From Ustilaginoidea virens (lineage: Eukaryota > Ascomycota > Sordariomycetes > Hypocreales > Clavicipitaceae): 64,000 nucleotides of DNA. Location: positions 4,836,001-4,900,000 of the forward strand of contig NC_057316.1 in assembly GCF_000687475.1 (NCBI RefSeq). Direction: 5' to 3'. The notes beneath the pieces are model-generated. The model saw only the letters and a list, made by a program, of their open reading frames with translations. It ran no database searches and was not told the DNA's origin. Of the stretch, positions 3,982 through 13,469 are shown piece by piece. Positions within the stretch are counted from its first letter, which is position 1. Each line of letters starts with the position of its first letter. The position numbers were made by a program, and so were the translations under genes.

Positions 3982-4350
3982 ATGCGTCCCCTGCGCTTAT
4001 TAGTCGCCCTCGCCACCCTCCTAGTTCCCCTTGCTATGGCTTCTGATATCCGAAGTACTATCGATCCTGACGAACTTCCCCGCTTCAACCATGTTCTGGA
4101 CATGTTGCGGACTAGTGGCGAACAATACCAGATGGTCTATAGAGCTGACCTACGACAAGTTGTTATTACCTACTACAGGGACGGCCGGTTGAAGACCAGG
4201 AGATTTAAGACCACCTCACACGCTGATGAGTATTTCCGAAAGAACCCACTCGATGGTGGAAGGAGGCCGCCAAAGGGTAACCAGGGTAACCAGGGTCATC
4301 AGCAGGGTCAGCAGGGTCGGAATGGCCGGAGAGTCGTTATTAGCCAATAA
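3982..4350 (+). CDS. Small secreted protein, tandem family copy 1
   Basis: This single-exon gene encodes 122 residues. Residues 1-20 are a signal peptide (MRPLRLLVALATLLVPLAMA). The mature part has no cysteine, an ordered-looking block with YRADLRQVVITYYRDGRLKT, the family motif FRKNPLDGGRRPPK near residue 85, and a Gly/Gln/Asn-rich basic tail built of GNQ/GQQ units. It is the first of three tandem paralogues on the same strand with unit lengths of about 735 and 787 bp. The three share signal peptide, upstream and downstream sequence, while the mature regions have diverged strongly. Size, secretion signal and basic tail resemble fungal effector-like or antimicrobial peptides, but no known family is recognised. 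Confidence 0.8.
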   Translation: MRPLRLLVALATLLVPLAMASDIRSTIDPDELPRFNHVLDMLRTSGEQYQMVYRADLRQVVITYYRDGRLKTRRFKTTSHADEYFRKNPLDGGRRPPKGNQGNQGHQQGQQGRNGRRVVISQ

Positions 4351-4716: not shown

Positions 4717-5085
4717 ATGCATCTCCTACGCTCTATTATCGCCCTCGCCACCCTCCTAGCCCCCCTTGCTATAGCTGCTCTTACTCTCGGTAGTGCTATC
4801 CATGAGGACGACGTTCAACGCTTCAATCGTCTTATGAAGCGGGTGGAGGATAATGGCGAACAATATGAGACGGTCTATAGAGACGATAGAGAATTAGTCA
4901 TTATTTACGTCGAAAAGAACGGCAAAATCACGACCTATCAGGTCTTTAGGGCCAGCAAAAACGCTCCTGCATTTTTCCGAATGCACCCAACCGATGGTGG
5001 AAAGAGGCCGCAGAAGGGTCGCAAGGTCGGAAAGGGTCGGAAGGTCGTAACTAGCCAATCACTGGGCAGTCGTGGACTAGAATGA
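4717..5085 (+). CDS. Small secreted protein, tandem family copy 2
   Basis: One exon, 122 residues. The signal peptide MHLLRSIIALATLLAPLAIA is nearly identical to that of copy 3. The mature protein lacks cysteine. It starts ALTLGSAIHEDDVQRFN, has the internal similarity to copy 1 NGEQYETVYRDD (copy 1: SGEQYQMVYRAD), then FFRMHPTDGGKRPQKGRK and a Lys/Arg/Gly tail (KVGKGRKVV). The tail end SQSLGSRGLE runs into sequence that is 3' untranslated in copies 1 and 3 (the conserved CTGGGCAG block), because the stop codon has been displaced. Function unknown. The conserved C-terminal motif is FxR/K-x-x-P-T/L-D-G/A-G-K/R-R-P. Confidence 0.8.
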   Translation: MHLLRSIIALATLLAPLAIAALTLGSAIHEDDVQRFNRLMKRVEDNGEQYETVYRDDRELVIIYVEKNGKITTYQVFRASKNAPAFFRMHPTDGGKRPQKGRKVGKGRKVVTSQSLGSRGLE

Positions 5086-5503: not shown

Positions 5504-5860
5504 ATGCATCTCCTGCGCTCTATTATCGCCCTCGCCACCCTCCTAGTCCCCTTTGCTATAGCTGCTCTTAGTCTCCGCAATTCTATTGACGCTACCCAAC
5601 TTCCGGACTTCGATGCTTTTAAGGAGAGGGCGGATGCTAATGGTTGGAGAATCAGGCCAATCTATGATCAATACGAAAATTTGATTAATATTATGGCCTT
5701 TGGAGACGACCACCTTCTGAAGGCCTCCAGGCTCTTTCTTGGCAATGCAAACGCTCCTCAATATTTTAGACAGAGGCCAACTGATGCTGGAAAGAGGCCG
5801 CAGAAGGTCCAGAAGAGCCAGAAGAGCCCGCAGCCACGGAAGGGCAGGAATTCTCACTAG
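5504..5860 (+). CDS. Small secreted protein, tandem family copy 3
   Basis: One exon, 118 residues. The signal peptide MHLLRSIIALATLLVPFAIA differs from copy 2 at two positions, while most of the mature region (ALSLRNSIDATQLPDFD onward) differs. It has no cysteine. The family motif is kept as YFRQRPTDAGKRPQK, followed by a basic tail with QKSQKSPQPRKGRN. The conserved 3' block (CCAATAACCTGGCAGCCGTGG) directly follows the stop, as after copy 1. The contrast of conserved flanks with divergent mature protein suggests fast evolution after duplication. I see no fourth copy downstream. Confidence 0.8.
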   Translation: MHLLRSIIALATLLVPFAIAALSLRNSIDATQLPDFDAFKERADANGWRIRPIYDQYENLINIMAFGDDHLLKASRLFLGNANAPQYFRQRPTDAGKRPQKVQKSQKSPQPRKGRNSH

Positions 5861-7629: not shown

Positions 7630-7986
7630 TTAAGAAGTTGGGCCCTCGGCGTTGACAGCGATCTTGTCGGTGTCAGTGTAAGGAGATCGCTTCTGTCCGG
7701 CAGCGGAATCGACTGCGATCTTGTCGGTATCAGTATATGGGGATCGCTTCTGACCAGCTGCGGCGTTGACAGCGATCTTGTCCGTGTCGATGTAGGGAGA
7801 CCGCTTCTGTCCGACAGCGGCATCGACTGCGATCTTGTCGGTATCAGTATATGGGGATCGCTTCTGACCAGCTGCGGCATCGACTGCGATCTTGTCCGTG
7901 TCGGTGTAGGGAGATCGCTTATAGCTGGCCTTGCTTGGCAACGCCGACACAGCGGCCGCAGCAGCGAGAACAAGGAGCAAACGCAT
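7630..7986 (-). CDS. Secreted Kex2-repeat peptide precursor (dikaritin-like RiPP precursor candidate)
   Basis: This intronless gene encodes 118 residues. Residues 1-15 form a signal peptide (MRLLLVLAAAAAVSA). Dibasic KR sites fall at 23-24, 42-43, 61-62, 80-81 and 99-100, exactly 19 residues apart. Each introduces a repeat of the form SPYTDTDKIAVDAAAGQ; the last copy ends NAEGPTS. The SPY-x-DTDKIAV part is invariant except one T-to-I change, and D/N alternate after it. Kex2 cutting in the Golgi would free five 17-mers or near copies. This is the organisation of precursors of ustiloxins, phomopsins and epichloecyclins, whose Tyr-containing cores are cyclised by UstYa-type proteins; such a gene lies head-to-head 0.9 kb away. 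The product identity is unknown. A plain secreted-peptide function (KEP protein) without cyclisation is the alternative. Confidence 0.85.
   Translation of the reverse strand: MRLLLVLAAAAAVSALPSKASYKRSPYTDTDKIAVDAAAGQKRSPYTDTDKIAVDAAVGQKRSPYIDTDKIAVNAAAGQKRSPYTDTDKIAVDSAAGQKRSPYTDTDKIAVNAEGPTS
7640..7920 (-). repeat. 57-bp tandem repeat inside the precursor gene, 5 units
   Basis: The 19-codon units are also near identical at DNA level (CGATCTTGTC and GGAGATCGCTTCTG recur every 57 bp on the plus strand). Recent unit duplication or homogenisation is implied. Confidence 0.9.
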
Positions 7987-8907
7987 CGCGTAATAGGCGT
8001 ATGGTAGTTCTTTATGGGTTTGAAGAAACTGTAGAAACTATGAATTGAAATCTGTCTTGCTCATCCACGATTTGCCGAGGACAGAAGCCTGCTTTAATAC
8101 TTGTACTTGCACGCGAGATTGATTGATCAATCGCATTGCATTGCATTTTCAAGCTCCAACCAACGTAGCTAATAATAGACGTGATGTAATACCATGGCGC
8201 ATAGTCTGTCGAGGATTTGAATCATATAAAGGATGCTTGGTGCAACAAAAAGGCCTGCGTACAGTATCAATGCGCAACCTGGAGATTGAAGAACGATGAC
8301 ATGGCTTGCACTACATATGATCGCCCCAGTGCTTCTTTGAGTTTCCAGATTCGGTCGAGGACATAGAAGTACGTGGTCTTTGATATCCACTATCTCGAAG
8401 GATTCCTGATGAAGCTCTGGAGCTGCTATGGCACCAGCGGGCGCAGGTTCCCGGCCCGCCAAGGCGTATTTCATGATCACCGTCGAGCCAGGACCGCCAC
8501 GAGCTCTGTTCAAAGCCGCCGCCCAGGCACTGCTCAAATTGAGCGGGCGGCTCTGCTCAAAAAGCCAGACCGCCAGTGCTCCAGCCGTCTTGCTTGACGG
8601 CTGGCTCTTTCAGGTCCTTGGCCAGTGCGTGCATGCTCAATACTCAATGCTCAATACCTGCATGGGCAACTATTGACATGTCGCCAAGAAGGAATGTATT
8701 CTGTCTCCTTGTCAGTGCGCTGCGTTTTGACTGCGTTCGGAAACCTCCCCAAGGCCAGGTCGGCGACTTGTCGCGAGACCATTGCCAGAGTATTTGTTCG
8801 TTCTGCTACATAAGCGCCCGGCCGTGTCTCCCATCTTTCCAACCAGCAGAGGGGTGTTTTGATGCATCAAGGCTTCAAGATAGACTTGACGCAAGCGCCC
8901 ACGCGAA
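7987..8907. promoter_or_regulatory. Divergent promoter region between precursor and UstYa-like gene
   Basis: The two start codons face away from each other across 921 bp with no supported gene between. The arrangement allows shared regulation. I see no clear TATA box or recognised binding site. Confidence 0.5.
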
Positions 8908-10272
8908 ATGGTGCCGCGCAAAGTCCTGCAACGCTGGTCTGGCTACTCGCTTCTCGAAGGCCGCACGACCCAAACAGCCAACGATGACGCCGAGACATGC
9001 TGCTCGGCCGACAGAGCAACCAGGCCAAGCAGGCGGGAAAATGCACTTGTGTGCCTGCTCGTCGCCAACACGATGCTCTTCCTCATGACGGCGGCCATGC
9101 TGGCAAGCTTGCGGAGGCCTCGCTCGACCGAGCTTCTGAACCAGGCTCTGAGGGCCACGTCCAGCTATAGTAGGAACCTACCTCCCCTTTGAAGATGCAT
9201 CCTTCCATTCTCGCTGGACTTGACGGCTCATACTGACCCTCGATCCAGGCCCGGTGTTTGACATGATTGATCTGGAGCCGTCGATTCGCAGGATCAACGG
9301 CACCGTGAATCCCGCGGGAAAGCTGTCCATAGCACGCCAGTTCCCCAACCCAGAAGCCGACGCCGTGTGGGAAAACGACATTGAGCTGATACGTCCCATT
9401 CCGGTTACGCGAGAACAGATTGTCAAGATGGGCAAAAACCCAGACACGGTGGCGAAGCTGGAAAACAGCGTCTGGGGCCTTGGGGACGACGCATACGTAG
9501 CAGCGCTGGACCTGTTCCACAACCTGCATTGCTTGAACGCGTGAGTCGAAGCTGGCCCTTGCTTCACTTGATTTGGATTTCTTCTCTGTTTTTTTTCCTT
9601 CCTTTTCTCCATCCCAAGCTTGTTGATGAAAAGCTGCATGCCACCACAAAACATCAGTCTACGGAACAGGCGCTGATGGACGTGATGCAGGCTCAGACAG
9701 GCAATTTATCCAGACTACTACAACCAGAGCAGAGGTGAGAAGAAGCGCAGCTGCCCGTCCTCATGGCCACATCTGGTAACGCTTGTTTGCGGCCATCATG
9801 TCCCGTTTGCCTCTAGTCGACACCGAGAATCAGCAGTCAATGACGGCAATCCACCTCAACCACTGTGTCGACATTCTGTTCCAGCACATTTCGTGCAGGC
9901 AAGTACCACCACTGTCCCATTGGACCGAAAGTTAAAACCACTTATGGAAATGACTACTGAGGATGAAGAACATGCAGCAACAATGTGAACCTGGTTACGC
10001 GACACTGGACGGAGGGGCGAGAATACCCGTTCCCTGATTTGTAGGCACCTGCCCTCGTCATCCTATCCCGCTGCCTCTTGCGCCACATCTGACCGGAGAG
10101 TAGCTCAATCAATTCTCACTGCATAAACTTTGAAAAGTTATCCGAATGGCATAAAGAGGTCTCGATCGATATGAAAAAGTACCTCGAGGTGATGAGGAAG
10201 CCGCCCGGGGTCAGGGAGGAGCCCGCCGAGGAGTGGCATTCTGACGAGTGGTTAAAGGCCTATTATAGCTGA
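8908..10272 (+). CDS. UstYa-like (DUF3328) oxidative cyclisation protein, six exons
   Basis: Exons 8908-9169, 9249-9540, 9691-9734, 9817-9898, 9978-10040 and 10104-10272 join in phase to 303 residues. A cytosolic N-terminus is followed by one membrane segment (about 45-65, ALVCLLVANTMLFLMTAAML) and the family landmark YSP at 87-89. The two HxxHC motifs typical of UstYa are HNLHC (178-182) and HLNHC (212-216), with AIYPDYY between them, and a HCINFEKLSEW block in the C-terminal part. All expected landmarks are present and in order, so the gene looks intact. Intron 4 (9899-9977) begins GCAAGT, a GC-AG intron. In ustiloxin, phomopsin and asperipin biosynthesis such proteins oxidatively cross-link the core peptide; here the divergent neighbour supplies a fitting precursor. 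Other usual partners (second UstY, tyrosinase, peptidase, methyltransferase) are not seen nearby. Confidence 0.9.
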
Positions 10273-10410: not shown

Positions 10411-12206
10411 CTATCTATTCAGGTTGTAGATATCTTGCTTCAATCGTCCTTTCAAAAGCTCGTCAGACCGCGAGAAGATTTTCAAGTGCTGTTGCTGAGC
10501 CCCGCCAGGAAGCCAAAATTCATTAAGCTGCTTGAGAATAATGTCTTTGGCGGACTGGTGAAAGAAGCTAACATAACCGTCCCGGCATATAAAAAAACAG
10601 CCGCAACATTTAACAGCGTCTTCTACATCGCTTTCGGAGTATTTCTCCATGGTTTCAATAAGAACCCCCATTTCTGCAAAGCTCAATGGGCGAAAAGCGA
10701 CACAAGCTGTGGCTAAGGTCTGTTTGCGTTGACGTATTTCGCGCGACTCTTTGGACGACTCTTTGGACGACTCTTGAACCCGCTGCAACATGGCTTCGTA
10801 AAGATTGTCGAGACCTCGTGGGGAGTATCGAAGTTCATTCTCAAGATCACGAGGTCTGAGAACCGGATCGGCTAGCCCTTTACAAACCAGGGCTACCCAT
10901 AGAAAGGTATCGTCGGCGTTGGAGTACATGTGTTCAGTGACTTTTTTTGTCAACTCTTGATTGTTATTCCACTTGTCCTTGGCCAGCTCCTTCACTTTTA
11001 AATCTATGAATACCTTGACTGCTGCAGGAATCGATTCCTTTTCCAAATCGAGATCGAGAGTAACTAGCCCCTGTGCTTTTTTGAGGCTGCCCTTGATTTC
11101 AAGCCAGTCGCGACTTGAAACAATCCATTTGGCAGTGCATGAGCTGGAAATGTCGGCAATGAGTTCGGTGAGACTTCGTCTATCGGTGCTGCACTCATCA
11201 AGGGCATCTACTACCAAGACTGTGTTCTGCAAGCTCGAGTCTTGTAGCAGCTTCTTCAATAAATCCTTCATCAATTCACCTCTATTGACATCCTCGAAAG
11301 CCTTTTCTTTCTTCATCTCATATTCCGGCCTGATCTCAGATAACAGGGCCGGGCGCTTTTTGAGGAGCTCGAACAATAAGCCGCGCAGTACGGCGTTATA
11401 GCTCGATGCGTTCCCGCCCTTGGTACTACCCTCGCAGAAGAAGAAAGACAGTGGATTCGGCGACTCTTTCCATTTATTAATGATTCCCGCGATGAGCATT
11501 GTCTTGCCATTTCCAGGTGACCCCTAATCCAAAGGACTCGATTTGACGGGCTCTTTTTGAAATCTGCATAGGCGGAGCTGTCAAAGATTCAGCTGGATAC
11601 GTTCGGCAGCAGACCACCTTTATACTTTTCAATTCTTTGCTTATCCCATTCTGGGTCGGAGACAAGCAAAGCGTGCAACAACTCTCCCCCTGGCGAAAAC
11701 TTGAGGGGTGCATTTATCACTGACTTGAAATTTTCCACAATCTTGACCACGCTGGAGAGGGATCCCTTAGCTCCCGCTATTTTCTTAGACCTCTCCATGC
11801 CAGCATAGATCATCATCCACATCTTGCGGACCTCATCGCTCTTAGACTGAGCTAGCTTCTGAATCTGTTTAGGGATATCCCAGTTTTTCAATCCCCCCTG
11901 AGCCTTTTGGAGAACTTTACCGTATTCTTTGACGCAGCTGGGCTCGTCTTTCTTCAGGGCGTCGTATGCTCTCCGCCAAATTTGCTCAGGAAGACTGAGT
12001 GGTACAGCCTCCAGATTCGCTGGCTCAACCACCTCAGGGCTCGCTGGTGGAGCAATTGTTTCAAGGGGAGGGCTTGCGGGCTGGGGTGAGGGCTTTTTTT
12101 CTTGTTTCGTCGAGTCTCCTGGTGGCGTAGGAATTCGTCTTGTGTCATGTTTTCTGCCACCGGGGCGTAACTCGATTTTTTTTAGAATTTTGAATCGAGA
12201 TCTCAT
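10411..12206 (-). pseudogene. NACHT-type STAND NTPase, interrupted at the P-loop and truncated
   Basis: The minus strand encodes an N-terminal NWD-like region (LPEQIWRRAYDALKKDEPS, 11592-12206) and then a NACHT domain: SPGNGKTML (Walker A), TVLVVDALDEC (Walker B), KWIVSSRDW (sensor), ending in a winged-helix-like region with SFFHQSAKDII. A TGA at 11589-11591 stands where a Trp would fit (SS-stop-IFDSSAYADF), and WIRG and SPGNGKT are in different frames. So either there are two lesions, or a roughly 80-nt intron from GTATCC to GGATTAG skips both, keeps the frame, and deletes the residues before Walker A. Translation stops after IYNLNR at 10411 without any WD40, ankyrin or TPR repeats, in AT-rich sequence. 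Intact relatives act in heterokaryon incompatibility and innate-type defence. Confidence 0.75.
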
Positions 12207-13469
12207 GATTAATAAGTCGAAGGGTGCACTTTTACTACCTGAGGGGATAGAATGAGTTGATTTGCATGGAAGAGCAATTTGTGTTAAGGCGAGGAAGAGT
12301 GGAAATGGACTGACAAAAGAACGAGCGAGAGGGGGCGTACTCCGTAGACTCTAGAGAAACATGGCAGTTGGGCCGCGAGGGAAGAGATCTCGGGTTTCAA
12401 TGGACCAGAGTAGTCTATGTCTTGGTAGCTGCAAGCTGCGTAAGCTTACGCAGCAGGGGGGTCTTGTAAGGGAGGCAGACGGGAGCCAAACGAAATTGAA
12501 GAGCGCGTATCAACTGTTACCTTAGGATGCGGGTTTCTGCGTGATTGCAACGTTTTGGTGAGGACGGTTGCGGTTGGTCGGCCATGATGGTGTAGACGCG
12601 AATGCAACTCGTGAGAACCATGTCACTCAACCAACGCGAGCGCTCCATGAGCCTTGCTTTGACGATCCATTGCAGGAGACGGGAAGCTTTCACCCTGTGG
12701 CAGTCTGTTGGCCAAAGTAGCCGGTGTTTGTCAATGAGACGCTGACCATTTTCCTCGGCAATAAGACCCGAACACGATTAGCAGCATGATATTCGAGGTC
12801 CTTCAATCTAGACTGGCCAGTGGTGCTGGAGAACCTGGAAATCCCGGGACAGGTGGCATCGCCGAAAGCCTCGCAGTCTGCTATGCGGATGCCAGAATAT
12901 TTAATCTGGTTGTTCATAGTAACTCGGCCTTTCCCGGCCTTTCCCTCACACCAAGCATGGTCCCTCTCGGAAGCGAGTGGCCACACCACAGCAGAGACAA
13001 CGGCAGCCCACAGGTTATGCTTCCGGCACTCGGGTTTCCTATGTGGACCAGACGTAGAGGCACTAGATAGTGGTATAAGTTAGTCCCAACAAGCCTTAGC
13101 CATCTAGAGTATTTAATACATACATAGTAACTCGGCTAAATGCATCGACAAGCAACGATACCCGGCCAGATCCACGAGCTGTCACCGGGAAACGTGGTGA
13201 CGAAGGTAGATATTGCCAATTCCAGAATCTCCCATGTGGACAATTTTGGCGGGGCGAGGAAGTGGGGATGTGGTTGTCCAAGTTATCATTATTATGGGCC
13301 CCGCTTTTCCAATACAGCTCCGAATACCATCAACCGCCACGACAAACTCTCGTCTCACTTCCCGCGACGGATATTAGCCGACAGACGGCGCAAAAGGAGG
13401 CGGCTCGCTAGCGCGCGCTTTCGTGCTTCTCGCTCAATTGATCTGCGCCGACTTGTCCTTGTCATCGCC
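12207..13469. other. Intergenic region before ltn1
   Basis: No supported gene. GTACTCCGTA, one of the recurrent motifs, lies at 12337-12346. An in-frame open stretch before the ltn1 start (13140-13469) is Arg-rich and unlike the family N-terminus, so I regard it as 5' untranslated. Confidence 0.5.

Follow-up and report, generated by a model that had tools for sequence, protein, structure and literature searches.

In the older, phomopsin-based description, a dikaritin cluster contains a PhomQ/UstQ-type tyrosinase homologue and an S41 peptidase. A definition based on the enzyme, as stated in PMC12048977, relies on a DUF3328/UstYa protein with two HxxHC motifs. Ustiloxin is described as requiring a tyrosinase-like protein alongside two UstYa proteins, whereas one UstYa-type cyclase is required for asperipin-2a (PMC6514808). 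In Clavicipitaceae on grasses, the epichloecyclin gene gigA has been described as a repeat precursor gene that belongs to a cluster of four and has a DUF3328 gene next to it (PMC7317419). The survey of Umemura 2020, based on annotated proteins of October 2019, reported 1758 of 7878 KEP genes with a DUF3328 gene within 15 genes, adjacency being the commonest case (PMC7329392).

Here we describe a pair of this kind in Ustilaginoidea virens, the fungus of rice false smut, located on contig C1 in a window of 64 kb (the whole stretch of DNA that was analysed). It resembles the asperipin-2a locus (aprA, aprY, aprT, aprR) in having a repeat precursor and a single UstYa-type enzyme (PMC6514808). However, the asperipin-2a core FYYTGY holds several aromatic residues, while the core of the U. 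virens pair has one Tyr. The asperipin-2a locus also has a reductase and a transporter; neither was seen beside the U. virens pair in 14 of the 34 frames of at least 140 aa between 10.4 and 33.2 kb, a scan in which small or intron-rich genes may be missed, and an MFS search, which scored 9 of 178 candidates, is of little weight. On the left, the scan covered ten frames within the first 7.5 kb of the window and, in the adjoining 20 kb outside it, 10 of 19 frames with a length of at least 180 aa. No S41 peptidase was found by a general domain scan among the ORFs scanned around the pair.

The same genome carries the ustiloxin locus (C4, 5.705-5.713 Mb), where VEDY(A/V)IGVDKR repeats, two UstYa genes, a tyrosinase, FMO-like genes and a P450 lie within kilobases. 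The window pair shares with it the KR-spaced repeats and the UstYa gene type, but it has one UstYa gene, lacks a match to a PhomQ/UstQ-type tyrosinase on its contig and differs in its core: the tetrapeptide reads YTDT or YIDT, and not YXIX as in the ustiloxin type (YAIG/YVIG). The likeness to epichloecyclin lies in a repeat precursor beside a DUF3328 gene in one of the grass Clavicipitaceae (PMC7317419). The gigA cluster contains kexB, whereas the one kexin-type gene of U. virens (two adjacent PF01483 matches, C1:7.008 Mb) is 2.16 Mb away from the pair. Epichloe was absent from the named rows among 87 UstYa matches.

A 2026 genome paper tabulates four fungal-RiPP-like entries for UV-8b (PMC13233505), and the pair may be one of these. 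Open-licence PMC papers contained no mention of PYTDTDK or of UV8b_01066, UVI_02053430, UV8b_01065 and UV8b_01067, and no title among the matches listed from them describes the pair in U. virens. The core, the pair in U. virens and the exchange of the core in relatives all seem unreported, the kind of system being known.

The precursor gene and its repeated core

The precursor gene (7630-7986, minus strand) is an intact, uninterrupted frame of 118 aa. Its N-terminus is hydrophobic and is joined by a short linker to five units, all of which start with KR-SPY. The N-terminus, MRLLLVLAAAAAVSA-LP, has a mean hydropathy of 2.18 across residues 1-16; on this basis and by eye, a putative signal peptide was called (residues 1-16, 7939-7986, minus strand), and the relatives P0001, P0090 and P0091 have a similar start. 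The units, 57 bp each, lie on the minus strand between 7920 and 7636: unit 1, KRSPYTDTDKIAVDAAAGQ (7864-7920); unit 2, KRSPYTDTDKIAVDAAVGQ (7807-7863); unit 3, KRSPYIDTDKIAVNAAAGQ (7750-7806), in which Thr is changed to Ile; unit 4, KRSPYTDTDKIAVDSAAGQ (7693-7749); and the last, unit 5, KRSPYTDTDKIAVNAEGPT (7636-7692). All five have KR or RR ahead of the core. The initial annotation had proposed a secreted precursor with five KR-spaced SPYTDTDKIAV repeats. The precursor is real, its signal peptide being putative, and the number of units is correct, but SPYTDTDKIAV is present in four of them and SPYIDTDKIAV in unit 3. In Tandem Repeats Finder, the unit of 57 bp came out with 77% matches and one of 114 bp with 92%, so the units were duplicated in pairs.

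When the 64-kb window was scanned for KR/RR-anchored hexamers repeated at least three times, the precursor ORF alone was returned. The identical scan of eight other stretches (75 kb; the other UstYa loci and their flanks) gave only the ustiloxin precursor and its out-of-frame shadow. The precursor combines a putative signal peptide, tandem repeats and Kex2 sites with predicted cleavage, by which KEP genes are defined, and like a dikaritin precursor it is putatively secreted and has several KR-spaced cores containing Tyr. Among public proteins of 0.55-1.75 times the query length, none from U. virens matched it at E <= 10, and it was therefore probably missed by the survey of Umemura 2020. Two other matches were attributed to chance: the Pfam family DNA_pol3_theta (20.9 bits, with a cut-off of 34.6) and a second match in the own genome (E 0.056), which lies within a 1755-residue frame. 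Elsewhere in the genome, three UstYa genes are found within about 9 kb (C6:2505003-2513827; L009, L010), and the KR/RR hexamer scan of C6:2491000-2518000 found no KR-repeat precursor. Near a C6 UstYa gene, a frame with seven TEQHEA(P/A) copies and no KR between copies (L010:3359-3646, minus strand) may be a plain minisatellite.

Next to their sequence, the codons of the units were compared. Over ten unit pairs the 13 core codons gave a pS of 0.500 and a pN of 0.014, and the six tail codons a pS of 0.579 and a pN of 0.300; the pairs are not independent, since the cores of units 2 and 4 do not differ and unit 3 is nearly a copy of unit 1. For the tail codons of units 1-4 only, pS was 0.536 and pN 0.113. 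Between the cores of units 1 and 2 there are six synonymous codon differences and no others. A chance reading frame was rejected: among the six frames, pN/pS was smallest in the coding one, at 0.20; second came shift 1 of the plus strand, which gave 0.34 and contains stops, and the other four ranged from 1.53 to 2.51. The core codons are under constraint, their differences being almost wholly synonymous.

The divergent UstYa gene

Head-to-head with the precursor gene and separated from it by 921 bp (7987-8907), which from their position presumably hold both promoters, lies an intact UstYa gene (8908-10272, plus strand) of six exons and 304 aa. Exon 1 (8908-9169) encodes the presumed membrane helix, placed from the model of an orthologue, exon 2 (9249-9540) HNLHC and exon 4 (9817-9898) HLNHC; exon 3 (9691-9734) was set by alignment to P0003, and exons 5 (9978-10040) and 6 (10101-10272, with the stop) complete the frame. 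The protein matches the UstYa family PF11807 with 172 bits (E 1.6e-50) and with its two HxxHC motifs conforms to the enzyme-based definition of dikaritins. The initial annotation had given 303 residues, one too few for an otherwise sound call of an intact UstYa-like gene; its YSP and HxxHC motifs and its spacing of 0.9 kb were recovered, and the membrane anchor agrees with a helix predicted in the model of P0003.

Intron 4 (9899-9977) has GC-AG ends, with the boundary AG|GCAAGT. The protein that results reads HISCSNNVNLVTRHW. Its agreement with HISCSNNLNLVTRHW of the orthologues P0003 and P0004 from Claviceps supports this reading of the intron. With P0003 as the query, five gene pieces were found in order, the 44-bp exon 3 being unmatched on its own. 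The best match of the UstYa protein is UV8b_01066 of U. virens. Both public U. virens models are truncated: P0002 (238 aa) runs into the GC-AG intron and P0009 (185 aa) stops with exon 2.

In the tree, the window protein groups with three Claviceps proteins at weak support (86/54), nested in clades of 10 rows (98/96) and 11 rows (100/100) that are mostly Hypocreales; the larger of the two comprises Claviceps, other Hypocreales, Thozetella and Xylariales sp. PMI_506. The Xylariales protein, P0010, shares 73% identity with the window protein across 74% of the latter, more than several Hypocreales proteins do, and the gene may have passed from one order to another. Orthology with the ustiloxin oxidases was rejected, as the ustiloxin-locus proteins of the own genome fall far from the window protein, in a placement that is unsure given their long branches and an occupancy of less than half of the alignment columns.

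In the first HxxHC motif, H, H and C are kept in 36/36 aligned relatives, and in the second they are kept in 35/36, with one gap. In the AlphaFold model of P0003 (mean pLDDT 73, pTM 0.59), a helix is predicted at residues 40-63 and the motifs are placed on helices 170-185 and 203-220, an arrangement resembling that described for the copper enzyme CctR (PMC12435403). A sequence search for solved relatives gave none at E <= 1, and a fold search gave no match at E <= 0.001. CctR, a member of the UstYa family, is described as a membrane-anchored dimer whose paired motifs form a binuclear copper centre; its reaction requires O2 and electrons, and alanine mutants of the motif are inactive (PMC12435403). 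For asperipin-2a, a dicopper site of this family is reported to form the ether between Tyr-O and Phe-C-beta (PMC12186524).

The U. virens genome has nine exon-level PF11807 matches, which we counted as eight genes. On the UstYa side of the pair lie a NACHT NTPase (10.4-12.4 kb), listerin (13.1-18.6 kb), an OPT transporter (24.3-27.8 kb) and kinase and RPN1 domains, and on the opposite side DUF3659 proteins. The NACHT NTPase gene (10411-12350, minus strand) is directly downstream of the UstYa gene and has NPHP3_N/NACHT and NACHT_N domains.

The pair and its core in Claviceps

When searching proteins of 0.55 to 1.75 times the query length, one relative of the precursor was found at E <= 0.01, and four with a two-row profile at E <= 10. 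P0001 of C. digitariae has three PYTDTDK copies whose tails differ (QTAGLI, QVASAP), and P0089, a 52-residue fragment, carries KRLPYTDTDKEVAKRYTDTDKEVA, with EVA as the tail after K. KR or RR stands before two of the three P0001 copies, the first of which follows the signal peptide, and before both P0089 copies. Tyr is present in all the core copies seen in U. virens, P0001 and P0089. SPYTDTDKIAV, which had been put forward as the core, was rejected as the conserved unit because the tail varies in C. digitariae and P0089; what these copies conserve as the core is (S)PYTDTDK.

The precursor has two weak matches, P0090 (Claviceps sp. LM220) at E 5.0 and P0091 (C. spartinae) at E 8.2. They share a similar signal peptide and a last unit, ERSPLPEADKVAVNAAN, that resembles KRSPYTDTDKIAVNA and retains (I/V)AVNA. 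Their repeat is PKLPLYRxxD, in three and two copies, respectively, with one KR site in P0091 and none in P0090. We compared the four relatives with the U. virens precursor as whole proteins, without the signal peptide and over the last 25 residues, and in none of these twelve comparisons did any of 500 shuffles reach the score. P0001 and P0091 without the signal peptide were not distinct from shuffles (69/500 reached the score), so the link between these two goes via the U. virens protein.

The precursor and UstYa genes carry adjoining locus tags in 3/3 named relatives, all Claviceps: E4U55_005866/005867, E4U52_001177/001178 and E4U30_005852/005853. Contig sizes of the two genes agree for two relatives (69,705 and 52,500), and for the P0090 cluster the largest contig listed (42,310) has the same size as the contig of P0015, the UstYa protein of LM219. 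Adjacency was judged from locus tags and contig sizes irrespective of gene orientation; the 598-base contig of P0089 is uninformative about pairing. The initial annotation had named absence of the pairing in all relatives as a refutation of its reading; this did not occur, the pair of precursor and UstYa gene being kept in another genus. Of the 18 UstYa rows named as Claviceps among the 87 matches, 14 or 15 gave no precursor, and neither did the other genera among them. The UstYa orthologues include those of C. purpurea, Purpureocillium, Pochonia, Beauveria and Cordyceps. In two Claviceps species, UstYa tags are two apart (E4U56_002174/002176 and E4U61_002385/002387), a possible sign that two copies of UstYa flank another gene.

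These comparisons raise a speculative scenario, which we consider rather doubtful: grass-infecting Clavicipitaceae would have a two-gene RiPP family that preserves signal peptide, last unit and oxidase but swaps the repeated core, with PYTDTDK used by U. virens and C. digitariae and PKLPLYRxxD by C. spartinae and LM220. In its products the lone Tyr would be linked to the side chain of Thr, Asp, Lys, Pro or Ser, unlike the partners in ustiloxin, phomopsin, asperipin and victorin.

Proposed product and alternatives

Both genes are intact, are paired in Claviceps as well, and combine constrained core codons with conserved copper-ligand residues. With a probability of about 0.65, they form a small dikaritin-type RiPP locus with one UstYa, whose precursor is processed by Kex2 and oxidised near Tyr. 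That the ustiloxin locus of the same genome has both gene kinds argues for this reading; the weak matches P0090 and P0091, nearly free of KR sites and with a different core, argue against it. Put more broadly, the pair very probably makes a small modified peptide by a route of known kind, and this peptide seems not to have been described previously.

By analogy with the described systems, the two genes would be expressed together and the precursor would enter the secretory pathway, where Kex2 would cut after KR and release four 17-mers and one 18-mer, all starting with SPY. In linear form these peptides would have monoisotopic masses of 1721.811, 1749.842, 1732.863, 1737.806 and 1864.869, and the fragments SPYTDTDK and PYTDTDK masses of 925.403 and 838.371. 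UstYa would be anchored in the membrane by its N-terminal helix with the catalytic part in the lumen, and its two HxxHC motifs, which hold two copper ions in relatives, would use O2 to oxidise the core around its single aromatic residue, Tyr. The tail would probably be trimmed off the (S)PYTDTDK core. The C. digitariae core has no Ile, a point against a Tyr-Ile link as in ustiloxin. If Tyr is cross-linked, its partner would probably lie within PYTDTDK, as Ile is not conserved; besides Tyr the conserved core offers Pro, Thr, Asp, Lys and mostly Ser. Hydroxylation or desaturation of the core in place of a cross-link is possible. Any product and its role are likewise proposed by analogy; removal of gigA in Epichloe, or of the ustiloxin cluster in Aspergillus flavus, is reported to cause no visible change (PMC7329392). 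In U. virens itself, removal of USTA with CRISPR is reported (PMC5976777).

It is unlikely that the pair belongs to a larger pathway with genes elsewhere or is the remnant of a larger cluster. Ustiloxin, with its additional tyrosinase-like protein and second UstYa protein, is a precedent for such a pathway, and tyrosinase, P450 and other UstYa genes do exist elsewhere in the genome. The further enzymes that the initial annotation noted as missing at the locus are also lacking on a larger scale: none of the eight PF00264 tyrosinase matches of the genome is on C1, and P450 matches on C1 come no closer to the pair than about 390 kb on one side (ending at 4,451,737) and 1.05 Mb on the other (beginning at 5,896,449). 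However, the single cyclase of asperipin-2a, the constraint on the core codons and the intactness of both genes speak against a remnant or a missing part.

Quite improbable is a precursor that yields linear, unmodified signalling peptides, as mating factors do, beside a UstYa gene that serves another purpose. Most KEP genes in the survey (6120/7878) have no DUF3328 gene nearby (PMC7329392), but here the UstYa neighbour is retained in all three named relatives and no core copy of U. virens, P0001 or P0089 lacks Tyr. That the repeat protein acts whole, at the surface or as an effector, with KR pairs and neighbour incidental, is very improbable given the kept UstYa partner and the KR/RR before the core (5/5 units here, 2/3 in P0001, 2/2 in P0089), even though three tandem small secreted proteins without a Pfam family lie 1.8 kb from the precursor.

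These three paralogues (3982-4350, 4717-5085 and 5504-5860, plus strand; 118-122 aa, signal-like starts) belong to a family with at least 14 genome matches, six of them arrayed on C7 at 781959-785745. Two members, at C6:2522747-2523040 and C6:2525485-2525751, lie about 9 and 12 kb from the C6 UstYa group. The occurrence of such proteins near UstYa genes in the window (three) and on C6 (two) is possibly a coincidence.

Over a thousand comparable gene pairs are known, and the interest of this one, read as a dikaritin-type locus, lies in its unreported core and the replacement of that core in relatives. The locus also illustrates how surveys of annotated proteins can miss such pairs, the precursor having no match found among public U. 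virens proteins and its partner being mis-modelled at a GC-AG intron. For a fungus known for ustiloxins it is one more RiPP pair. With a single enzyme, and with one aromatic residue in each core, it offers an uncomplicated setting in which to study the action of a lone UstYa-type copper oxidase and the way such an enzyme handles replacement of the repeated core. If the peptide accumulates in false smut balls, it would be a new compound to seek in contaminated rice.
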